Part shown: one piece after another, positions 25,512-37,760 of the stretch | How positions within the stretch are numbered: the first letter of the stretch is position 1 | Layout of the letters: each line of letters begins with the position of its first letter | Assembly (NCBI GenBank): GCA_903857865.1 | Contig: CAIOGO010000015.1 | Span: 1-64,000, forward strand | DNA: 64,000 nt | Origin: an uncultured bacterium | Lineage (GTDB): Bacteria > Bipolaricaulota > Bipolaricaulia > UBA7950 > UBA9294 | Reading direction: 5' to 3' | Position numbers and translations under genes: made by a program | Notes under the pieces: model-generated | What the model saw: only the letters and a program-made list of their open reading frames with translations | Told to the model about the DNA's origin: nothing | Databases searched by the model: none

Positions 25512-26774
25512 GTGGCCACCGCGGTGCTTGGGCTTCAGTGGGGCGACGAGGGGAAAGGGAAGATCACCCATCTCTTGGCACGCTCTGCATTGATGGTCGT
25601 GCGGTTCAACGGAGGGCCGAATGCCGGGCACACGGTGATCGACCGCGGTGTGAAGTTCGGGACGCATCTCCTACCGGCCGGGGTGTTCTATTCCGGAGTG
25701 ACCTCCGTTCTCGCCGGGGGGGTCGTGATCGATCTCGACGTGATGAGGCGGGAGTACGAGGAGGTTGCGCGGCACCTCGGCCACGGGCCGGTGCTTCTTC
25801 TCGCAGAAAACGCCCATCTCATCCTTCCATACCACCGGATCCTGGAGGAGCTCGAGGGCAGTGGGTCCCGCTTTGGGACGACGCGTCGCGGCATCTCGCC
25901 GGCGTACTGCGACAAGATCGCCCACGTCGGCGTTCGCGTCGGGGATCTCTTGGAGCCAGAGCAGCTGCGGGAGCGCATTGCGTGGCGCCTCGACCTCCTG
26001 CGGAGGGAGTGGCCGCAGTGCGAGGAGCTCAGAGATCTCGATCCCACGAACATCGTCCGCGGGCAGCTCGAGCTCGCGGAGCCGTGGATGGGGTGCATCG
26101 TGGATGCATCACGGGTTGTCGAGCAAGCTCTTGCCACGGGCGACGAGGTGCTGTTTGAAGGGGCGCAGGGCGCGCTCCTCGACGTGGATTGGGGGACCTA
26201 CCCCTACGTCACGTCCTGTTCCACGACCTTCGCCGGCATCGGGACATCGTTGGGCATCGAGGGCTCGTCGATCGGCAGCCGCATGGGAGTCACGAAGGCG
26301 TACCAGACGCGAGTCGGCGAAGGGCCCTTCCCAACCGAATTGACGGACGGGATCGGCGCTTCCCTGCGGGAGCGCGGCGGGGAGTTCGGGACGACGACCG
26401 GGCGGCCGCGCCGTTGCGGCTGGCTCGACCTTGTCGCCCTTCGCTACGCCGTCCGGCTGAACGGGATCACCGAACTGGCGCTGACCAAGCTGGATGTGCT
26501 TGAGGGCCTGCCCACCGTCAAAGTATGCTGTGCGTACCGAGTTGGCGGGGAGACGACCGACCGATTCCCGCTCTCGGGCGACCGGCTGGCCGAATGCGAG
26601 GCGGTCTACGAAGAGTTGCCTGGCTGGAAAGACAGCGTGGAGGCGGACACGTGGGACGAACTGCCCGTGGCAGCCGGGCGATACGTCGCGCTCATCGAGG
26701 AGGCGACGGGCGTCCCGGTGGGCCTCGTATCGTACGGCCCATCGCCTGAAGAGACGTTGCGAAGGCCCCTTTGA
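25512..26774 (+). CDS. purA: adenylosuccinate synthetase
   Basis: 420-residue GTP-dependent enzyme joining IMP and aspartate, the first committed step to AMP. The N-terminal signature [12 protein letters not shown], the NAGHTV loop, IGTT-like [16 protein letters not shown], the [21 protein letters not shown] block and the [21 protein letters not shown] motifs are all intact. The start is GTG after AGGAGG. Its end carries the -35 box of the rplM promoter. Confidence 0.97.
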
Positions 26775-26799
26775 AAGGACGAAGCAGCGTCGCTATAAT
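26771..26799 (+). promoter_or_regulatory. strong promoter of rplM inside the end of purA
   Basis: TTGAAA, 17-base spacer, perfect TATAAT. The -35 box overlaps the purA stop codon. It allows ribosomal protein L13 to be expressed independently of ileS-purA. Confidence 0.75.
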
Positions 26800-26836
26800 C
26801 ACGCGCTTGAACTGGACATCCTGGAGGAGCACGAGA

Positions 26837-27280
26837 ATGCAACGGACGTTTGTGGCGAAGAACGAAGAGATGGGCACGAGCTGGAATCGCGACTGGTACG
26901 TCGTGAACGCTGACGGCAAGCGCCTCGGGCGGATGGCGACGGAGATCGCCACCATCCTGCAGGGCAAGCACAAGCCCATCTACACGCCTCACGTGGACAC
27001 GGGCGACTACATCATCGTGATCAACGCCGAGAGGATCGTGCTCACCGGGCAGAAGTGGGATGACAAGTTGTACCAGCGCCACACCGGGTACATGGGCGGG
27101 TTGAAGGAGATGTCCTACCGCAAGCTCATTCAGCGCCACCCAACCTTGCCCGTCCGCGAGGCTGTTCGGCGGATGCTGCCGAAGTCGATTCTCGGTCGCC
27201 AGATGCTCCGCAAGCTGAAGATCTACGCGGGTCCCGTGCATCCTCATTCGGCGCAGGAGCCTAAGGATCTCGAGATCTAG
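26837..27280 (+). CDS. rplM: 50S ribosomal protein L13
   Basis: 147-residue large-subunit protein that binds 23S rRNA early in assembly. Family blocks: [74 protein letters not shown], and [32 protein letters not shown]. The ATG at 26837 follows GGAGGAG. Usually rpsI (S9) follows directly; here there is a hairpin and then an unrelated secreted protein gene. Confidence 0.97.
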
Positions 27281-27326: not shown

Positions 27327-27441
27327 ACCCTCTAGACAAAGACGGGAAGGCGCGTCGACACCGTTCCCTCTTCCACCGCTTGGCGTTGCTAGACTCCTTT
27401 TGGCAATTAGGAAGTCAGCCATAGGGGTGGTGGAGAGAAAC

Positions 27442-28071
27442 ATGCTCGATCGAACGCGCGGGATCATAAGGTGCGTCGCCGTTGTCCTCCTCGTCGTCGC
27501 GCTCGCCGCAGCGACGGCCCAGGGTCGCGAGAGGGTGGCCCTCTTCATGCAGGCCGCTGCCGCAGTGCCGACGGCGGACCTCGAACTGGTCAGAAACTAC
27601 GCAGCTCAGCGCTGCTCGATCGTGTCGGGCGGGGAGACATGCTCCCAGGGCGATCTCATGTTGGCCCAGCGGGCGGCCAACGCGTACATCGGGAACAGCC
27701 TCACGGTCGACGGACTGCAGAGGCTGGCGGCGACTCTCGGCGCGGACCACATCATCATCATGCGGATCGTGACCTGGGAGAACGCGATCACATACCGCCC
27801 AGAGCGATCCCTCCTCCTTCTTGGAGCCACATACTTCCTCGATACGTCGCTGCAGCTGCTCATCACTCCGCTCGGTCTCCTGTTCGGGATTGAGAGGAAG
27901 GCCTCGGTCAGCCTCTTTGCGACCGTCTTCAACCCAAGGGGAGATGTCGTGTTCACGACAACGGTTTCCGCGGACGACCGACCTCTCTTCTCGCTGCTGA
28001 CTGCGGACCCCGTCGAGGCAGCGAAGAAGGCGGTCGAGGCGGCGCTCTACCAGATGGTCGTGACCCTGTAA
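27442..28071 (+). CDS. secreted or periplasmic protein of unknown function
   Basis: 209 residues. A signal peptide is likely (IIRCVAVVLLVVALAAATAQG). The mature part is mixed alpha/beta, with two cysteines (RCSIVSGGETCS), an ALGADHIIIMRIVTWENAIT segment, and a hydrophobic stretch (about 130-155) that may be an amphipathic or membrane-close helix. The phrase LGADHIIIMRI loosely recalls periplasmic proteins that bind other lipoproteins, but I do not recognise the family. The ATG has GGTGGAGAG upstream. It lies before the three-gene PKD cluster, separated by 141 bases with a possible extended -10 box, so it may be independent. Confidence 0.6.
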   Translation: MLDRTRGIIRCVAVVLLVVALAAATAQGRERVALFMQAAAAVPTADLELVRNYAAQRCSIVSGGETCSQGDLMLAQRAANAYIGNSLTVDGLQRLAATLGADHIIIMRIVTWENAITYRPERSLLLLGATYFLDTSLQLLITPLGLLFGIERKASVSLFATVFNPRGDVVFTTTVSADDRPLFSLLTADPVEAAKKAVEAALYQMVVTL

Positions 28072-28151: not shown

Positions 28152-28212
28152 GGAGCTGCATTCCTGCTTCGCGCAAGAAGAGAAGATGAATACGCCAACA
28201 AAGGAGGTAGCA

Positions 28213-30435
28213 ATGAGGGTGCGTAAGGTCAGCCTCTTTGGCCTTCCCCTCCTCCTGGCGGTGGTCGTTCTCCTCGTACCGTTGATGGGCTTCGCCCAAG
28301 GAGACGGTTTCTACACTGTCAGTCAAGGGGAAACGCAGGTTCCAATCGTACCGCTGGCGAACGCAGCGGACCCGGTCGCGTTCTACAAGGCGACGAACAT
28401 GCAGTCGGCGACGGGCTTCGAAAAGCCCAACACCGCGATCATGTTCCTCTATCAGAACACAGTCAACGGCCAGATCTCGCTGTTCGTCCTCCTCGGAGCC
28501 GCGGGGGGCACGGCGGGCTCGACGACCGTGACGTTGTCCGGCGTTCCGGCGGGTGCGAAATTCCAGGTTCAGGACGATGGAGCCGGGGACTTCCGCGAGC
28601 AATGGCAGGTGACGCCGCCGACCGGGAGCGTCTCGTGGGTCTGGGACCAGGGCCGCGGCGACGGCCTAGTGCTCGGGCCGTTGGGCAACGTGTTCCAAGT
28701 GACGCTGTTCCCGCAGTTCACGGCCGGAATCACTGACGTGAAGTTCCTGTCTGGAGACAGGACGGTTCCGCAGACGATTGCGCTGAATCGCGTCGACCCG
28801 ATCATCGTCGGAGCGGTTCAGAACCAGCCGCCGACGGTGTCCTTCTCGGTGTCGACTGCGAACGCCCGCGTCAACCAGCCGCTCACCTTGGATGCCTCGG
28901 CGTCGAGGGACGCTAACGGCCAGATTGTGAAGTACGAGTGGGACTTCAACGGGGATGGGATCTTCGATCAGACCACGACCGAGCCGACGGTGAGCTACAC
29001 CTACGCGACGAGTGGCACGAAGAGCATCACCGTGCGGGCCACCGACAATGAGGGTGCGACGGCTCGTGCCACGCAGACCGTCAGCGTGGGTGACTTGGCC
29101 GTTCGGGTGACGCGCACCATCTCGACATCGGCCGCTCTGCCGGGGAGCACGTTCCTCGTCATCGTCCGAATGGAGCCGCAGATGGACGTTGCGGGTGTCG
29201 GTCTGCAGGAGAACCTGCCCGTGGGCTGGCAGATCAAGCCACTGGAGAACGCCGGTGCCGCGTTCAAGCGCTCCACGGTGCAGTGGATCTTCGTGGACAC
29301 GATTCGCGCGAATTCGACGAAGGTCATCTCATACGAGTTGACGGTTCCGCCGGCGTCCCAGCTCATGACCTCGACGATGCCCGTTTGCTTCACGCTCTCG
29401 GGCACGTTCCAGGCGATGACGCCGTTCATGGAGCTTCCCGTCGAAGGCGATGCCAAGGTGGAAGTTGCCTCGGCGCTGCCGCTGAAAGAAGCGATCGCGC
29501 ACCTCGTGCCACGCATGGGCCTCGACTCGGAGGACACCATCGATCTGCGCCTCTCGCAGAAGATCGACTCGCAGCAACTGGCGCGAGCGCTCGAGATGTG
29601 GCAGAACGACGAGTCCGTGCCCTGGACTGCGGGTGCAACGATCAGCCTCGAGGACATGAAGGAGCTGTCGGCGTACGCCTACACGTGCACGCCGGTTGAC
29701 CTCCCGTTGCCGCTGGTGCCCGCGGCGAACATCAACGCCGTGCGCACGATCCTGGCACCGGTTCCGTGCAACAACGTCCTCCTGAACTACACCGGCCCGG
29801 GCGGCGATCGAGCGGGAAGCACGTTCACCGTCAAAGTTGAGATTTGGGCCGACCAGGATCTCTACGGCGTAGGGTTGAACGAAGATGTGCCGGCCGGATG
29901 GAAGGTCATTCCGGTCGAAAACGACGGCCTCACGTACAAGAGAGCGAGGACGGAATGGGTTTTCCCGACCAAACTGCCGGCTGGCGTGATGAAGACCATC
30001 ATCTACCAGGTTGAAGTTCCAGCCACGCAGGCTATCGAGATCTCGTCCAGCGACCCGTGCTACGCCAGCAGCAATGACCTGTACGGAGTTGTCGACGCGG
30101 CGCTGCCGTGCATGGAGACGACCGTGACGGGCGACTCAGGCGTGGACGTCAGCGAATGCGTGTCGGTCCTCGTCGCGATCTCCCGCTGGGACGTGCAGCA
30201 CGACCAGTTGGATATCACCTTGTCCGACAGGATCTCGTTCCAGCAAGTCCAGCGCGCGATTGCGTTCTGGTTGGAGGACGAGGTGGTTCCGTGGACCTGC
30301 GGGCAGACTGTGGGCTACCACATGCTGAAGGAGATCATCGCCTACTGGCTCACCGGCACCAACATCTGTGATCCGCTTCCGGTCGTCCCGACTGGCCCAT
30401 GCGATCCGGATGCGTCCGTGTGCAGCGGCGGCTAG
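28213..30435 (+). CDS. secreted PKD protein with two DUF11-like / Trp-rich tail modules
   Basis: 740 residues with a signal peptide (FGLPLLLAVVVLLVPLMGFAQ). Residues about 25-200 are an unrecognised beta domain; about 208-297 a PKD domain (VKYEWDFNGDGIFDQ). Then the same two-part module occurs twice: a DUF11-like beta domain (VGLQENLPVGWQIKPLENAG; VGLNEDVPAGWKVIPVENDG) followed by a helical domain of about 80 residues (417-503 and 645-726). The helical domain has the pattern IDLRLSQKIDSQQLARALEMW and VPWTAGATI, or ISRWDVQHDQLDITLSD and VPWTCGQTV, then AYWLTG and a PLPVVP exit. The next gene carries a third copy. AAGGAGG precedes the ATG at 28213. Surface location is inferred; function unknown. 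Confidence 0.75.
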   Translation: MRVRKVSLFGLPLLLAVVVLLVPLMGFAQGDGFYTVSQGETQVPIVPLANAADPVAFYKATNMQSATGFEKPNTAIMFLYQNTVNGQISLFVLLGAAGGTAGSTTVTLSGVPAGAKFQVQDDGAGDFREQWQVTPPTGSVSWVWDQGRGDGLVLGPLGNVFQVTLFPQFTAGITDVKFLSGDRTVPQTIALNRVDPIIVGAVQNQPPTVSFSVSTANARVNQPLTLDASASRDANGQIVKYEWDFNGDGIFDQTTTEPTVSYTYATSGTKSITVRATDNEGATARATQTVSVGDLAVRVTRTISTSAALPGSTFLVIVRMEPQMDVAGVGLQENLPVGWQIKPLENAGAAFKRSTVQWIFVDTIRANSTKVISYELTVPPASQLMTSTMPVCFTLSGTFQAMTPFMELPVEGDAKVEVASALPLKEAIAHLVPRMGLDSEDTIDLRLSQKIDSQQLARALEMWQNDESVPWTAGATISLEDMKELSAYAYTCTPVDLPLPLVPAANINAVRTILAPVPCNNVLLNYTGPGGDRAGSTFTVKVEIWADQDLYGVGLNEDVPAGWKVIPVENDGLTYKRARTEWVFPTKLPAGVMKTIIYQVEVPATQAIEISSSDPCYASSNDLYGVVDAALPCMETTVTGDSGVDVSECVSVLVAISRWDVQHDQLDITLSDRISFQQVQRAIAFWLEDEVVPWTCGQTVGYHMLKEIIAYWLTGTNICDPLPVVPTGPCDPDASVCSGG

Positions 30436-30439
30436 TTGC

Positions 30440-30463
30440 CTCGGACGCGCTTGCGCGTCCGAG
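30440..30463 (+). terminator. strong hairpin between the two cluster genes
   Basis: CTCGGACGCGC, TT, GCGCGTCCGAG: an 11-bp perfect inverted repeat immediately after the stop of the upstream gene, overlapping the start of the GAGGAG ribosome site of the next gene. No T tract, so it may attenuate, protect the transcript end or mask the ribosome site rather than terminate. Confidence 0.5.
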
Positions 30464-30480
30464 CGAGGAGATGATCAGTT

Positions 30481-32673
30481 ATGAGAACGACCACAAACAC
30501 GGCGAGGGGGAAACCCCTCGCCGTGGCTCTTCTCTTCTTCGTGTTGGCGTGCGCCTCCGGGGCGGTGTGGGGAGAGGGGTCCCTGCAGGTTGAACAATCG
30601 TTGAGTCCGGCGCAGATCAACGTCGTCGGGATGGGCACGAAACCCGATACAGCGACGCTCGGCGTGTCGCTGCTCGGCCAAGGAGCGGTCGGGCAGTACC
30701 CGCTCGACTGCGTCGTCGTGATTGACGCGTCGGCTTCGGCACAACTCGCTGAGGCGAAAGCGTTCGCGTTCGATCTCATCGGCCGCTTGGGCAGCTCGGA
30801 CCGCGTCGGCATCGTTTCCTTCGGGACGACGGCTGACTTGGTTGTGCCGCTCACGGAGGACAAGCTGCAGGCCAGGGTCGCCGTGGGCGACCTCGCGGGC
30901 GATAGCAAGTCCGCTCTGGGTGCCGGGCTGCAGCTGGCACGTCAGGAGCTGCAGCGCTACGGCAGAGAGGGTGCCGTCTTGGCGATTGTCCTCATTGCGG
31001 ATGGGCAGAACAACGTCGGCGCGGCGCCCACCATCGAAGGGATGGTGTCCGGCGAGACGGGGATTCGCATCTCGACGGTGGGGATCGCCCCGATCATCAA
31101 TCGGACCCTGCTCATAGGTCTTGCGGAGCAGTCAGGCGGCGTGTTCGTTCCGGCTCCGACGAGCGAGGGCGTCGATGTCGTCGTGGGCCATCTACAGATC
31201 TCGGCCGCGGCGACCGACATCACGGTGACGAAGCATGTTCCGGCGGGGCTCCACTTCGTCGGATCAACTCCCGCAGCGACGCTGACGCGCACGGAACGCG
31301 ACGGATCGACGACGATCACGTGGCAGATCGCGGAAGTCGAGCGTGGCGGGAACGTGCGAATTGAGGCACGGTTCGATGCCTCGGCGAAGAGCAATCTGGT
31401 CACGGACGATCTCTCGAAGGTTACGTATCGAGATTTCCGGGGCGTGGTTCGGGAGGCGGCCATCTCTCCACTTGTCCTCTCGGTCATCATGCCGAATCGG
31501 GCGCCGACTGCGGCGTTCGCGTTTGATCCCGTCAGTCCGACCGCATCCGATCTCGTCACGTTCCGCGACCAGTCGCGCGACGTCGACGATGACGATCAGA
31601 TCGCAGGTTGGCGCTGGAACTTCGGGGATGGGACGGGGAGCGAGGCGGCGAAGCCCGAGCACCGCTACGTGGCGGCCGGTGCCTACAGCGTCTCGCTTCT
31701 CGTGGTCGATGGCCACGGAGCGGAGTCGAGCTCGGTGACGCGCACGATTACCGTGGGAAATGGGATTCCAGTTGCGAGCTTCGTGCTGCGGGAGCCCGGA
31801 ACCCTGCGGGTCCTGTCGGTGTCGCTGATCGGCATGGACGTCGTCCTCGACGCCGGCGGGTCCTACGACGTGGACGGCACGATTGCGCGCTACGCGTGGG
31901 ATCTGGATGCGGACGGTGACGTGGATGAGGAATCCACGCGGCCGACCCTGACGACCTCCTTCCCCGTAGCGGGAGAGCAGAGCGTCACTCTGGCGGTGAC
32001 CGACGACTACGGCAATGTGGCCGTTGCGACGGCGACCTTCGCTGTCGCGTCGAGTGTGACCGTGGAGCGCACTCTGGACACGTGCCTGCCCGGCGATCAG
32101 ACCATTGCGGGCGGCGTCGTCACCGTGGCCATCGTGGTCACGGCCAACGCGACGCTGGACGGAATGGCCGTGAGCGAGACCATCCCCTCGGGGTGGACGT
32201 TCCGTTCGCTCGAGACGGACGGCGCGACGGTTCGGACCACGGCGACGTCCGCGGAATGGATGTTTGCGGAGCGGTTTGTCGGCGGCTCGACGGACTCGCG
32301 GCGGGAGATTCGCTACACACTCACTGCGCCAAGTTCGGGGCCGACGGAGGAGCGCGAGTTCGCGACCCTGCGAGGCTTCGTTACGAGTTCGTCTCCGCGC
32401 ATGACGGAGACGACAACGGGCGAGGACAAGATCACGCTCCTCAAGCACCTCTCGATTCCTCTGGCCATCTCGCGGTGGAACACGAAGACCTCGGCCATCG
32501 ATCTCTGCGTTGGGGAGAAGGTCGCGTTTGATCAGATCCAGTACGCGATCTCACTGTGGGTGTCCGGCGGCAAGGTGCCGATGACGAACAACGAGACGAT
32601 TGACCTGATCACGATGGAGGACCTCATTGCCTACTGGCTGACTGGAAGCTCGGTCCATGACCCACTCCCTTAA
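30481..32673 (+). CDS. secreted von Willebrand A / PKD protein with Trp-rich tail domain
   Basis: 730 residues, signal peptide at about 12-31 (AVALLFFVLACASGAVWG). A VWA domain (about 72-245) has the metal-binding MIDAS start VVIDASAS (D82, S84, S86) and LIADGQNN. A DUF11-like beta segment follows (about 240-335), then two PKD domains (WRWNFGDGTGS; YAWDLDADGDVDE) at about 342-430 and 433-525, a second DUF11-like domain (VSETIPSGWTFRSLETDG), and finally residues 649-730: ISRWNTKTSAIDLCVGE, QIQYAISLW, VPMTNNETI, LIAYWLTGSSVHDPLP. That tail is a third copy of the helical domain in the gene before. VWA domains bind ligands through a metal, so an adhesive role is plausible. Confidence 0.78.
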   Translation: MRTTTNTARGKPLAVALLFFVLACASGAVWGEGSLQVEQSLSPAQINVVGMGTKPDTATLGVSLLGQGAVGQYPLDCVVVIDASASAQLAEAKAFAFDLIGRLGSSDRVGIVSFGTTADLVVPLTEDKLQARVAVGDLAGDSKSALGAGLQLARQELQRYGREGAVLAIVLIADGQNNVGAAPTIEGMVSGETGIRISTVGIAPIINRTLLIGLAEQSGGVFVPAPTSEGVDVVVGHLQISAAATDITVTKHVPAGLHFVGSTPAATLTRTERDGSTTITWQIAEVERGGNVRIEARFDASAKSNLVTDDLSKVTYRDFRGVVREAAISPLVLSVIMPNRAPTAAFAFDPVSPTASDLVTFRDQSRDVDDDDQIAGWRWNFGDGTGSEAAKPEHRYVAAGAYSVSLLVVDGHGAESSSVTRTITVGNGIPVASFVLREPGTLRVLSVSLIGMDVVLDAGGSYDVDGTIARYAWDLDADGDVDEESTRPTLTTSFPVAGEQSVTLAVTDDYGNVAVATATFAVASSVTVERTLDTCLPGDQTIAGGVVTVAIVVTANATLDGMAVSETIPSGWTFRSLETDGATVRTTATSAEWMFAERFVGGSTDSRREIRYTLTAPSSGPTEEREFATLRGFVTSSSPRMTETTTGEDKITLLKHLSIPLAISRWNTKTSAIDLCVGEKVAFDQIQYAISLWVSGGKVPMTNNETIDLITMEDLIAYWLTGSSVHDPLP

Positions 32674-32750: not shown

Positions 32751-33446
32751 ATGCGAAAAGGGATTCGCACAGGTATCTTTGGGTTACTGATCGCTGCCGC
32801 CAGCGCGTGGGCCGCGAGCGCAGCGTGGCAGGCGGACTTCACGCCGGCGACGTTCAATCCCGGCGTAGGGGATGTCGTCAACTTCGCTGTCTGCGAGACG
32901 TGCCTTGGGAGCGGGGGAGCGTACCGCTACCTGTGGGACTTCAACAGCGACGGCGTCGTCGATCTCAACACGGATTCGACGGTCGCCGCGTGCACGTTCG
33001 ATGCAACGGGCTTCTACGAAGTCAAGCTCACGATTCAGGATCTTGGCGGCCGTGAGGTGACTCGCAGCAAGGGCATCTACGTCGGGCCCGTGCCTGCATA
33101 CGGCGTCCGGCAGGTGCTTCCGCAAGAGGACGGCACGGTGTTCGTGTCGATCTCGATCATGTTGAACTCTTCGGCTGTAGCGATCGGCCTAGTTGAAGAG
33201 ATTCCCGCCGGGTGCCAGTTGGAGATCATCGACGCCGGTGGTGCAATAACGAACTTGAACACCGAGATGCGGCAGCTCGAGGTCACCTGGGCGAGCCAGG
33301 TGGAAGCTGGCGACGAATTGACGCTCACCTACCGGCTGTATTCCAACTACGCGACGCAGACGCGCCAACTCTCCGGCGAGGTGAGCGGGTACGTCGGCGG
33401 AGCGCGGTTTGCCGACTCTGTGTGCGGAGAGCTGGCGGTGCCGTAG
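32751..33446 (+). CDS. small secreted PKD / DUF11-like protein
   Basis: 231 residues. The signal peptide is at about 6-24 (GIFGLLIAAASAWAASA). A PKD-type domain (about 25-112) has YLWDFNSDGVVDLNTDS and FYEVKLTIQDLGG. A DUF11-like beta domain (about 118-231) has VGLVEEIPAGCQLEIIDAGG, clearly the same family as in the two upstream proteins. It lacks the Trp-rich tail and ends at ELAVP, so it looks like a shortened paralogue of those proteins. AAGGAGG is directly before the ATG. Four cysteines in the PKD part (CETC and two more) could form disulfides. Confidence 0.72.
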   Translation: MRKGIRTGIFGLLIAAASAWAASAAWQADFTPATFNPGVGDVVNFAVCETCLGSGGAYRYLWDFNSDGVVDLNTDSTVAACTFDATGFYEVKLTIQDLGGREVTRSKGIYVGPVPAYGVRQVLPQEDGTVFVSISIMLNSSAVAIGLVEEIPAGCQLEIIDAGGAITNLNTEMRQLEVTWASQVEAGDELTLTYRLYSNYATQTRQLSGEVSGYVGGARFADSVCGELAVP

Positions 33447-33491: not shown

Positions 33492-34046
33492 CTATCGGTC
33501 GTCCGCGTCTCTCTTGGTCGCGGAGTTGTCGGCGTCCGCATCCTGTGGATGGGAGAACGACGCAACTCGCCCGCTTTGCCACAACGCGAGGCCGAGCAAG
33601 GCGAGGATGCCGAGCGACAGTCCGAGCGCGGCTGGGAATCCGAGTGTGGGGCGAACGGCGATCGCGAGGAGCGGCACGGCGAACGCTACGCCCGCCGTGG
33701 CCGCGGCGTGGGCGACGTAGTGGGGGGCGATCCGCCGATAGGCGAGGGGCGGCAGGGCCGCAAGGATGCGGCGGACGCTGGCCGCGTCCCACGCGAACAG
33801 GGACGCCGTCGTCGCGGCCAGGGAGAGAATCGTGTGCCCTTGAGCCGCCGCGAGGCCGGCCGCACCGAGCGCCATGAACAGGAACAGCCCGTGGACGGGC
33901 GTCCTGGGTCGCCACAGGAGAATGGCGACCCACATCGCTCCGAGGAGGGTGGGGGCAAGCGTCGCGACTCCCGCTCCGCCGACGGCGAACGCGGAGGTGA
34001 GGCAGCCGGTGGTGAGAGCCGCAAGCAGGCCGGCGGTCAGGTTCAA
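33492..34046 (-). CDS. integral membrane protein of unknown function
   Basis: 184 residues with about six hydrophobic helices (for example LLAALTTGCLTSAFAVGGAGVA, GLFLFMALGAAGLAAA, ALGLSLGILALLGLALW) and a polar, acidic C-terminus. The start is TTG at 34046, overlapping the DUF58 stop (TTGA) with GGAGAGGAG upstream, so it is translationally coupled. It is the last gene of the aspS-MoxR-DUF58 unit. No family recognised. Confidence 0.65.
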   Translation of the reverse strand: MNLTAGLLAALTTGCLTSAFAVGGAGVATLAPTLLGAMWVAILLWRPRTPVHGLFLFMALGAAGLAAAQGHTILSLAATTASLFAWDAASVRRILAALPPLAYRRIAPHYVAHAAATAGVAFAVPLLAIAVRPTLGFPAALGLSLGILALLGLALWQSGRVASFSHPQDADADNSATKRDADDR

Positions 34047-35329
34047 TGGATTCTCCTCTCCGCTTGGTCCAATCGCGCGGCGCGGATCGCGGAGCCTAGA
34101 GATTGACGCACGTTCCACGGCACGACGTGCACCCCCAACGACTCCATCACCTGGAAGTCGATCTGCATTTCCAGCCGGCGGATTCGCAGCGCGAGGGCAC
34201 GAGCCGGGTCGTCCGGCAGCGATTCCCGTTCGAGTTCGAGCGAGTCGGCGTAGATGACGAGCACGGAGTAGCCGCGCGCTCGCAGCTTGGCCGCGACCAT
34301 AGCATCCTCAGTTCGTGACAGGGGGCTGACGATGACGATCTGGGAGCCGCTCGGCAGCATCTGGATGGGAAGCTGTGCCAGGTCCTGGAAGGCGTCGCTG
34401 CGTGCCGGACGCGCCTTGGCGAGCGACGCAAGGATCTTCTCGAGGTGGAAACGGCCGCCCGCAGGCTGGATCCAATCGAGGAAACGACCGTACATCAGGA
34501 ACCCCACCCGGTTCCCCTCGCGGACGAAGTGCGCCGCCAGGCTGGCGGCCGCACGGCAGCACGGCTCGAACGTCGACTCGCCGCCCTCGCGGACATGGAC
34601 GGAAGCGCGGACATCGAGGATGACGATCACGTCCGTCATACGCTCCTGTTCGTACTCGTTGACGAACAGGCGCCCGTGGCGCGCGAACGCGCGCCAATTG
34701 AGGCGGCGAACGTCGTCGCCGGGCGCGTAGGCGCGCGAGCCGAACAGCTCGACGCCGGGCCCGGCGGCGCGTGCCCGCACCGGGCCGACGAAGGCGTGGG
34801 TCTTCCGTGGCCGGATGGCCATGCGGGGCAGCTTCTCGATCAGCGGGAGCACGGAGACGAACGTGGGGCAGTCGAACCGATACTCCTCCAGGGACAGGCC
34901 GAAGCGAGCCCACACCCAGGCGCGGACGCTGGCTTGCTCATGGAGGCCGCGGCCCGCGAGCAGTCGGTACTCGATCGTGATGGCACCGCCGCTTTCCAGG
35001 GGGCCGCAGAAGGAGGCCTCTCCGTCAACCACCGTTGCGCCCCCGGGAACCTCGTCCAGGACCGCGGCACAGGCGACGGCCTGTCCTCGGTTGGTCACGG
35101 ACAGGGTGACGTCCAAGGCGTCTCCCTCGACGATGCGACCGGAGGACAGAGAGCGCGTTGCATCGAGGAGCGGGCGGCGCAGCAGCGCATGCGACAGGAG
35201 GTGCGAGGCTGCGTAGACCAGGAGCGGCACGCTGAGCAGTAGGAGCGAAGACGAGCGCCCGTACAGCCCAGCGGCCAAGAACGCCGCGGCGAGCAGGACA
35301 GCCGTCGGGTAGCGGCGGTCGGCGTGCAC
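34043..35329 (-). CDS. DUF58 domain-containing protein
   Basis: 428 residues. Two N-terminal membrane helices (about 7-50) are followed by a beta domain and the DUF58 region: GPGVELFGSRAYAPGDDVRRLNWRAFARHGRLFVNEYEQERMTDV holds the family core (Y-x-PGDD-x-R-x-NW). A VWA-like MIDAS region follows (VIVILDVRASV). DUF58 proteins usually sit next to MoxR ATPases, and here moxR is directly upstream, one base away. The pair is thought to assist maturation or metal loading of other proteins. The start is GTG. Confidence 0.88.
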   Translation of the reverse strand: MHADRRYPTAVLLAAAFLAAGLYGRSSSLLLLSVPLLVYAASHLLSHALLRRPLLDATRSLSSGRIVEGDALDVTLSVTNRGQAVACAAVLDEVPGGATVVDGEASFCGPLESGGAITIEYRLLAGRGLHEQASVRAWVWARFGLSLEEYRFDCPTFVSVLPLIEKLPRMAIRPRKTHAFVGPVRARAAGPGVELFGSRAYAPGDDVRRLNWRAFARHGRLFVNEYEQERMTDVIVILDVRASVHVREGGESTFEPCCRAAASLAAHFVREGNRVGFLMYGRFLDWIQPAGGRFHLEKILASLAKARPARSDAFQDLAQLPIQMLPSGSQIVIVSPLSRTEDAMVAAKLRARGYSVLVIYADSLELERESLPDDPARALALRIRRLEMQIDFQVMESLGVHVVPWNVRQSLGSAIRAARLDQAERRIH

Positions 35330-35330
35330 G

Positions 35331-36281
35331 TCAGGAGACCTTCGGGACGACGGTCGAGTCCACCACGGCCTGGACGACGGCGTCCGTCGACGCGTGGCGG
35401 CTCCAGAACTCGGGCTTGAGGATCATGCGATGAGCCAGCGCGGGAATCGCGAAACGCTTGACGTCGTCGGGAATCACGAAGTCACGTCCTTGGATTGCCG
35501 CCCACGCGCGCGACAGCTTCAAGAGAGCGAGGGATCCCCGCGGGCTGGCTCCGACGTAGATGTTGGGGTGTGTGCGGGTCTTCGTCACGAGGCTGACGAT
35601 GTAGGCGTGGAGTTCGTCGTCGATGATCACCGTCTCTACAGCCGCCCGCATCTCGAGGATCTCCTTCGCGTTCGTGATGGGCGTGAGGTCGACCTCATCG
35701 TCGTGGCGAGCGGCGCGGCGGCGCAGGATCTCAATCTCCTCATCGTTCGTTGGGTAACCGACGGAGAGGCGAATCATGAACCGGTCGAGTTGCGCCTCCG
35801 GCAGCGGGAACGTGCCCTCATACTCGATCGGATTCTGCGTCGCGAGGACGGCGAACGGCCGCGGCAGCGGCCTCGTGTCGCCGGCCACCGAGACTTGAAG
35901 CTCCTGCATCGCCTCGAGGAGCGCCGACTGCGTCTTGGGCGTCGCGCGGTTGATCTCGTCGGCCAGGACCACGTTGGCGAAAATGGGGCCGGGCGCGAGG
36001 ACGAACTGGCTCGTGTCGCGATCGAAGACGTGCGACCCAGTGATGTCTCCGGGGAGAAGATCCGGTGTGAACTGGATCCGACGGAAGTCTAGTCCCAGTA
36101 CGCGGGCGAAGCTGCGTGCGATCAACGTCTTCGCCAGTCCCGGATTGTCCACGAACAGGACGTGGCCACCCGCGAGCAGCGTGGCGACGACCTGGCGGAG
36201 AACATCGTCCTTGCCAACTACGGCTTGGCTCACCTCGCCGACGATGGCCGCGGTTCGCGCCTTGACACCTTCTACATTCAT
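35331..36281 (-). CDS. MoxR family AAA+ ATPase
   Basis: 316-residue chaperone-like ATPase. The Walker A position reads DNPGLAKT (typical degenerate MoxR form), Walker B is VLADEINRATPKTQSALLEAMQE, sensor 1 is VLATQNPIEYEGTFPLPEAQLDRF, and the C-terminal lid has ASPRGSLALLKLSRAWA. The ATG at 36281 is preceded by GAGGAGG. It forms a unit with DUF58, DUF4129 and two membrane proteins, a combination widespread in bacteria and linked to envelope protein maturation. Confidence 0.93.
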   Translation of the reverse strand: MNVEGVKARTAAIVGEVSQAVVGKDDVLRQVVATLLAGGHVLFVDNPGLAKTLIARSFARVLGLDFRRIQFTPDLLPGDITGSHVFDRDTSQFVLAPGPIFANVVLADEINRATPKTQSALLEAMQELQVSVAGDTRPLPRPFAVLATQNPIEYEGTFPLPEAQLDRFMIRLSVGYPTNDEEIEILRRRAARHDDEVDLTPITNAKEILEMRAAVETVIIDDELHAYIVSLVTKTRTHPNIYVGASPRGSLALLKLSRAWAAIQGRDFVIPDDVKRFAIPALAHRMILKPEFWSRHASTDAVVQAVVDSTVVPKVS

Positions 36282-36825
36282 CTACGCCTCCTCTTGCTGT
36301 CGCTCGAGAGCGTTCAGGGTCTGGTCCACCAGGGCGCGAAACTCCGACCCGGAGGGGTTGCGCGCTCCCCTCGCGCCGCAGGAAGGCGGCGACGTGGGGT
36401 GCCGTCGTCTCCAGTCTGCGTTGTGCTTGCTCCCACGCGTCTTCCTCGTTGCCCTCGCGCCGGGATGCGGCGAGATTCGTGGACAGGCGCACGAGGCGCG
36501 CGACGACGTGCGAGCGGGACAGCCGGCTCTCGCCAGCGCGGCGGAGAGCGTCCGCCAGCGGGGCCAGGGAGCCCGTGGGGACGGCATCCGGACTTGGGTC
36601 GCGAAGACTGTGCCAGTGAGGGCGGACGCGGAGGGCGAGGGCTACGAGGATCGGTGTCGCAGCGACGACCGGGATGATCCACAACACCGCTTGCGGGAGG
36701 ACGGCGATCGCTTCCCAGAGAGACGCGCCGCGCCGCAGCGGCACGGAGAGCGCCGAGAGCAGGAGCAGCAACAGGAGGAGAACCAGCGCGGCGACCGTCC
36801 CGAGTGACGAGGAGGACTCGCGCAT
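36282..36825 (-). pseudogene. membrane protein gene with an apparent frameshift
   Basis: Reading from ATG 36825 gives two hydrophobic helices (LVLLLLLLLLSALSV; AVLWIIPVVAATPILVALAL) and a soluble helical part up to HVAAFLRREG. The sensible frame then moves by one base near a run of four Gs (36367-36370) and continues as RNPSGSEFRALVDQTLNALERQQEEA to a stop just before moxR. Neither frame alone makes sense over the full length. The start overlaps the DUF4129 stop (TGATG). Both ends are perfectly spaced to neighbours, so a sequencing or assembly error is as likely as real decay. The family is not recognised; the position suggests a partner of the MoxR/DUF58 set. Confidence 0.65.
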
Positions 36826-37760
36826 CACGAATCCAAAGCGGATGCCGTGACAAGGGAGTCGCGCAGCTGCACCATGCATCGCAGGGCGCGGGGCGAGAAA
36901 CCGTCGTCCGACCGTCGTCCGTATCGGACCAGCTCAAATAGACCGGTCAGTTCATCGAGGGCGGCTCCGCCAAGACCCGTTGCGGCGAGAGAGCGCGCGA
37001 ACTCGCGCGGAGTGAGCGCTGTCGCGTCAATCCCGGAGGCCTCGGCGTAGCTCTTCATCATCTCGCGATAGCACCGTTCGACGATGCCGACGGCGTCGCG
37101 GCCCAAGCGCAGCTCCTCCAGCGCGGCTTCCACGGGGGTCATGAGGTTTTTGGGGGGCGGCGTGTGATGGGGCGTGTGTGCGCGGCGGCGAAGGGCGGCG
37201 ACGAACAGCCCGGCGGCTGCGCCAAGCGTGACGATGGCGAGCACGATCTGAAACACGGAGGACGACGCCCGTCCCTCCGCTACCGACGTCGTCGGACCCT
37301 CGGCCGGCTCATTCAAGGGTGGGGCCGCCTCGCCTGGAGGTTCGGCCGCATGCTCGACGCTTTCTTCACTCAGCACAGGGTCCTCGCCGAGGGTCCTCGC
37401 TATCTGTTCTCGCGCCACGATCGCCAGGGCGATCATGATGAGGGCAAGCGCGAGGGTCCCCGTCAAGCTGGTCTTGCGCTGGGTCCAGCCGGTGCGGCGG
37501 GCTGCAACGTAGACGAGAAGGCCGATGATGAGGACTCCAGGCGGACCGTAGGCCATGAGGTAGTCGATCCACCGCAGAGGCACCATGGGCGATGGTGCTA
37601 GGGCCATCCCCAGCGGGCTCCGTTCGTGGTTGTGTTCGTCAAACGGACTGCCCTCGGTGAATGTGACCGTGCCGAGCGACGCAGAGAGGAGCACCGAGAG
37701 GATGACGAGCGACACGAGGCAGGCGAAGGCGAGCCAGACGCTGCCGCGCTCGCTCAGCAC
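36825..37760 (-). CDS. DUF4129 domain-containing membrane protein
   Basis: 311 residues: an N-terminal helix (LAFACLVSLVILSVLLSASL), further helices around 70-90, 103-116 and 172-193, and a C-terminal cytosolic DUF4129-type domain (IVERCYREMMKSYAEASGI, LTPREFARSL, ELVRYGRRSD). DUF4129 is a usual member of MoxR/DUF58/transglutaminase clusters. The GTG start at 37760 overlaps the end of aspS by seven bases with GAGGGA upstream; the stop overlaps the next start. Confidence 0.8.
   Translation of the reverse strand: MLSERGSVWLAFACLVSLVILSVLLSASLGTVTFTEGSPFDEHNHERSPLGMALAPSPMVPLRWIDYLMAYGPPGVLIIGLLVYVAARRTGWTQRKTSLTGTLALALIMIALAIVAREQIARTLGEDPVLSEESVEHAAEPPGEAAPPLNEPAEGPTTSVAEGRASSSVFQIVLAIVTLGAAAGLFVAALRRRAHTPHHTPPPKNLMTPVEAALEELRLGRDAVGIVERCYREMMKSYAEASGIDATALTPREFARSLAATGLGGAALDELTGLFELVRYGRRSDDGFSPRALRCMVQLRDSLVTASALDS

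Follow-up and report, generated by a model that had tools for sequence, protein, structure and literature searches.

Dockerin-type modules are calcium-binding plugs for microbial extracellular protein complexes, and CLIPPER domains feature a Lys-Asp-Asn isopeptide triad. The name CLIPPER was given recently to DUF11 for its isopeptide bond (PMC12617251). Of Bipolaricaulota, a single member has been described by microscopy; its cells bear long bipolar prosthecae, and no flagella, pili or adhesins were recognised in its genome (PMC6092417). The window, i.e., the whole 64,000-nucleotide stretch of DNA analysed here, belongs to a Bipolaricaulota genome of 2.24 Mb (22 contigs, 91% complete). It contains three copies of a helical module of about 80 residues, hereafter T, each directly preceded by a DUF11-like beta domain, hereafter B.

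The initial annotation had grouped the three T segments as one family by a shared motif pattern, and this grouping is confirmed. With copy 2 as the query against its own genome, the other two copies were retrieved at E-values of 2.5e-17 and 3.8e-14. Exactly three copies were found in the genome with copy 2, with a 50-row core profile or with an EF-type/archaeal profile. The identity to copy 2 is 35% for copy 3 and 41% for copy 1. The motif pattern itself is recognisable in all three copies, but it is looser in copy 1 (29461-29721), the most divergent of them, which reads AHLVP instead of AISRW and SAYAYTC instead of IAYWLTG. The DUF11-like domain reported before each copy was recovered for all three with a dedicated B profile (2e-27 to 6e-41), while the Pfam DUF11 model scored protein A at 8e-5 and 23.3 bits, just below the cut-off of 24.6. 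As had been described, two copies are located at or near the protein end: copy 2 stops about 18 residues before the C-terminus, and copy 3 ends its protein. Copy 1 is internal in protein A. As to whether T is always C-terminal on exported proteins, the proteins look exported, but among 61 distinct T copies in closed ORFs, 43 are within 25 residues of the C-terminus and 18 are not. In two genomes, a B-T-B-T array is found at the N-terminus of long repeat proteins (ORFs of 1391 and 1515 residues). The coordinates are given in Table 1.

Table 1. Features of the T locus and of related loci. Positions refer to the window unless another locus is named.
Feature	Position	Strand	Basis or remark
rplM	26771-27280	+	
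223-residue exported-looking protein, no Pfam match	27400-28071	+	upstream of protein A
Protein A, exported: PKD, then B-T-B-T	28186-30435	+	signal peptide by eye; start probably 28186 or 28213
B1, DUF11-like beta domain	29107-29451	+	B profile 1e-38
T1, copy 1 of the helical module, internal	29446-29712	+	profile borders
B2, DUF11-like beta domain	29737-30135	+	B profile 6e-41; AlphaFold2 B2-T2 model
T2, copy 2, subterminal	30130-30381	+	profile borders; AlphaFold2 pLDDT 92.3
VWA protein, exported: VWA, DUF11, two PKD, then B-T	30481-32673	+	signal peptide by eye
B3, DUF11-like beta domain	32062-32424	+	B profile 2e-27
T3, copy 3, extreme C-terminus of VWA protein	32419-32670	+	profile borders
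Protein C, exported: PKD and unpaired B, no T	32751-33446	+	signal peptide by eye
B4, unpaired DUF11-like domain of protein C	33114-33431	+	B profile 3e-20
DUF58 gene (34043-35329), MoxR ATPase (35331-36281), DUF4129 (36825-37760)	34043-37760	-	convergent to the T operon
Two proteins of about 101 residues, lipoprotein-type signal and T alone	L093, 90-392 and 2825-3130		G058, one contig
Halobellus membrane-anchored, cohesin-like protein, no Pfam match	L152, 25606-26433	-	by eye

The 223-residue protein occupies the same position upstream of protein A in several relatives. No rpsI follows rplM in the window; the sole rpsI found is located on contig C22. MoxR is present in 11 loci, including the window, and is missing elsewhere; it occurs nearby in one of the four haloarchaeal T loci. 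The Halobellus T operon has DUF4129, DUF58 and an AAA ATPase gene as neighbours. With MoxR so patchy across loci, the MoxR-DUF58-DUF4129 genes were rejected as a mechanism for the T operon and kept as an association only.

The AlphaFold2 model of T2 (pLDDT 92.3, pTM 0.81) contains helices at residues 8-13, 32-43 and 58-70. The two main helices with their preceding loops form an internal repeat (KISFQQLQRAIAFWLEDEVV versus TIDLETLKELIAYWLTCTPV). The two halves score 13.8, compared with a mean of -2.9 (SD 2.7) for shuffled sequences, and none of the 500 shuffles reached this value. The deep-branching genome G058 contains about 42 T matches distributed over many proteins, with copies that read SIEKALDTNNNGRLDDDEIKKAIGFWILGQNVPGTDKTIDDNKIKALVTLWISG and similar; these relatives and those of the haloarchaeal plasmids connect T to EF-hands. 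The loop of a relative, DTNGNGRIDDDEI, aligns without gaps to that of the window, DITLSDRISFQQV, and the window loops DITLSDRISFQQ, DLRLSQKIDSQQ and DLCVGEKVAFDQ align in the same gap-free manner to the EF-type DTNGNGRIDDDE. A strict EF-hand loop, defined as the 12 residues D-x-D/N-x-D/N-G-x-I-x-x-x-E, is found in 14 of 151 distinct T copies, all from G058. In the window loops the ligands at positions 3, 5 and 12 are gone, and position 12 is Gln in 50 of 50 core copies. The second loop is non-canonical in all aligned copies. Core T and EF-type T match with an hhalign probability of 99.2 (E = 2.6e-19), so that, judged by sequence, the two are clearly homologous.

Searches of Pfam, NCBIfam and PDB sequences with single T copies and profiles yielded nothing credible, and no Pfam or NCBIfam family covers T, which agrees with the initial statement that the family is without a name. 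EF-type T matches Pfam EF-hand_7 weakly (20 of 30 bits, below the cut-off), and the best matches of the EF-type profile in PDB, also weak, are EF-hand proteins and not dockerins. Foldseek of the T2 model, i.e., of a window copy only, gave no PDB match at E <= 10. The gap-free loop alignment, the hhalign result and the weak EF-hand matches in Pfam and PDB together suggest, at the level of sequence, that T, an internally duplicated loop-helix, loop-helix module, is related to EF-hands.

T is not confined to this locus. The phylum search found it in 95 of 100 Bipolaricaulota genomes and in all 38 genomes of high quality (at least 90% complete, low contamination). The 28 loci found first belong to Bipolaricaulota, are unnamed or are seemingly mislabelled Bipolaricaulota. 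Two loci labelled Neomarinimicrobiota (L024) and Atribacteria (L009) both contain the Bipolaricaulota operon, and L024 is placed inside the Bipolaricaulota tree, so both look mislabelled. Beyond Bipolaricaulota, haloarchaeal plasmids (three of Halobaculum and one of Halobellus) were the only source of T, the search having covered archaeal plasmids but not chromosomes. A search of a phage collection for T returned nothing credible, and a phage origin of the module was rejected.

The operon is conserved across families and follows a common rule. Protein A (B-T-B-T) comes first, next is a VWA protein with B-T at its end, and protein C, which has one B but lacks T, is last; purA and rplM usually precede the set. 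The VWA gene is absent from some families and loci (such as L026-L031, L132 and L147), where A and C are still present. Protein C with its unpaired B occurs in nearly all loci with enough sequence, L015 being an exception. In complete operons B exceeds T by exactly one when counted with the B profile (two B and two T in A, one of each in the VWA protein, one B in C); a weaker DUF11 match at residues 243-303 of the VWA protein is not counted by this profile. The three kinds of B-T unit separate almost cleanly in a tree of 117 such units, with three changes among kinds versus a shuffled mean of 53. The A1 units form a single clade of 45 rows (support 97), and the A2 and VWA units are nearly separate. 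Since the kinds separate in this way, the A-(VWA)-C arrangement is probably older than the radiation of the phylum, the deepest forks being unsure and the branches long.

The B2-T2 unit was modelled by AlphaFold2 with a pLDDT of 88.6 and a pTM of 0.78. For the B-T model, Foldseek retrieved the CLIPPER crystal structure 9ifr with a probability of 1.00 and a TM-score by target of 0.60. Most hits were low-TM ones to clathrin adaptor mu2, which were dismissed as beta-sandwich noise. The cysteines of the units follow a pattern. Of the 117 B-T units, 59 have both Cys10 and Cys57 of T (profile numbering) and 58 have neither, with no discordant unit, and on a tree built from B alone each changes seven times, always together with the other. 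Only four of these changes are on well-supported branches (p = 0.125), and a formal sign test would need more. The window units B1-T1 and B3-T3 have two cysteines only, one per domain; in A3 numbering, the putative pairs are B108-T207 in unit 1 and B8-T161 in unit 3. The cysteines B8 and T161 occur jointly in 10 of 14 aligned VWA units and are jointly missing from the other four. An odd number of cysteines was counted in 29 of the 117 units. The joint gain and loss of paired cysteines and the single cysteines in B and in T suggest that the two domains are joined by disulfides in the Cys-bearing units, at different places in different copies. The B2-T2 model is compatible with this reading and gave no distances.

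No cohesin was detected in the window genome by PF00963 or by a wider cohesin-like profile, and no Dockerin_1 was detected either; a classical cohesin-dockerin pair in this genome was thus rejected, neither partner being detectable. The deep families f5-f9 often encode cohesin-like domains, and the family of the window has almost none. In G058 and G059, some proteins have T behind one or two cohesin-like domains; the same order was seen by eye in G061, at the cut end of the locus. In a comparable protein of G048, Dockerin_1 takes the place of T after the cohesin-like domains. The gene row of Halobellus includes T proteins, a protein with two B domains and Dockerin_1, and the membrane-anchored protein whose cohesin-like character was called by eye, the wider cohesin-like profile already containing that sequence. 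In Halobaculum, the gene after that of a T protein encodes a B protein whose PGF-CTERM anchor signal is weak. These chains of cohesin-like domains followed by T, and the Halobellus operon with Dockerin_1 and a cohesin-like protein, point to a dockerin-like setting. The initial impression of a dockerin-like flavour is supported, with an EF-hand flavour as a further finding, but by sequence T is not a Dockerin_1 member, the profile comparison being non-significant.

Considering these data together, we regard as slightly better than even the explanation that T, together with B, makes up a rigid unit within an exported complex and is itself an assembly module of degenerate, dockerin-like character. 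The ancestral T would have been a plug that depended on calcium and fitted receptors of the cohesin-like or another beta-sandwich type, and the lineage of the window would have retained it in a metal-free form, attached to its own B domain, the two packing as a single rigid unit held by disulfides. The B-T units could then act as structural or assembly elements of a surface complex that proteins A, C and VWA would form. If T does have an intermolecular partner, the best candidate would be the B that protein C carries unpaired, a natural choice because complete operons have one more B than T. Against this explanation stand the non-significant comparison of T with Dockerin_1-type profiles, the T2 model without a PDB match, a window genome without detectable cohesin or Dockerin_1, and the odd cysteine counts and few supported changes noted above for the putative disulfides. 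The same excess of one B allows for a donor-acceptor chain, in which T of one subunit would plug into B of the next and protein C would end the chain; this version is considered unlikely.

T might instead serve purely as an intramolecular stabiliser, a mechanical clamp of the preceding B that binds nothing else. B is found directly before T in every core copy, the single cysteines in B and T of one unit suggest disulfides, and the missing cohesin and Dockerin_1 in the window genome fit such a role. However, 27 of the 61 closed-ORF copies, in deep families and haloarchaea, have no B before T, and the two proteins of about 101 residues in G058 comprise only a lipoprotein-type signal and T. Hence T stands alone in these groups, and the clamp appears rather unlikely. 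The 43 copies near the C-terminus and the roughly 42 copies in one genome, as with sorting tags, would also suit a C-terminal sorting or retention signal for an export or anchoring machine. This role is quite improbable: internal and N-terminal copies exist, and the two short T proteins bear their own lipoprotein-type signal. Moreover, T in G058 either closes the protein or has a stretch of about 100 nearly constant residues behind it. A distinct C-terminal domain of about 97-113 residues follows eight copies (L095, L096, L099-L101, L103, L105 and L109) and in some G058 proteins weakly resembles T9SS type A sorting domains, which makes T unlikely as the sorting signal in that genome. If T were simply a regulatory EF-hand domain that binds calcium, the 14 strict loops and the weak EF-hand_7 and PDB matches would be accounted for, but the window copies have lost the ligands at loop positions 3, 5 and 12 and the second loop is canonical in none of the aligned copies, so this role is highly improbable.

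The assembly-module reading gives a phylum with an almost unknown cell surface a name-worthy domain and a conserved set of exported proteins, and it points to a dockerin-like module common to bacteria and haloarchaea. A visible series leads from the canonical calcium-binding loop to a degenerate form, maybe held by disulfides instead, so that ligand loss can be directly tested against cohesin absence. If the donor-acceptor version is true, the complex would be a phylum-universal self-assembling surface polymer, separate from pili, S-layers and cohesin-dockerin scaffolds.

Among known systems, the DUF11/CLIPPER family (PF01345) is approached by B, whose score is near the Pfam cut-off and whose structural matches include 9ifr, the others being unrelated and of low TM; B differs as a diverged LPxGW group with cysteines that would pair with T. 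With the wide profile, T homologues were recovered at 3e-15 to 2e-9 in haloarchaeal surface proteins with CARDB, PKD and malectin domains. The segment has no name in their annotation, and B domains are located in the same protein or in adjacent genes, but these proteins are archaeal and T is not fused directly behind B. With the EF-hand pair (PF13499), T of one deep genome shares the first loop D-x-N-x-N-G-x-I/L-x-x-x-E; however, T is below the Pfam cut-off, its second loop is non-canonical and the window copies are degenerate. Dockerin type I (PF00404) is likewise small, often located near the C-terminus of exported multidomain proteins and built of two tandem loop-helix (F-hand) motifs by internal duplication, and T fills the same slot after cohesin-like domains in deep Bipolaricaulota. 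In contrast to Dockerin type I, the second loop of T is VPxTxGxxI, a much shorter linker joins the two motifs and the calcium ligands are lost in the window copies. The PF00404 model gave no Dockerin_1 match in 50 T copies, and hhalign of T against dockerins of the same phylum gave probabilities of 10 (EF-type) and 0.4 (core), which are not significant. Since the family model, the window ligands and a cohesin in the window genome all fail, T should not be filed as Dockerin_1, and from its sequence it is best described as a new EF-hand-derived, dockerin-like module.
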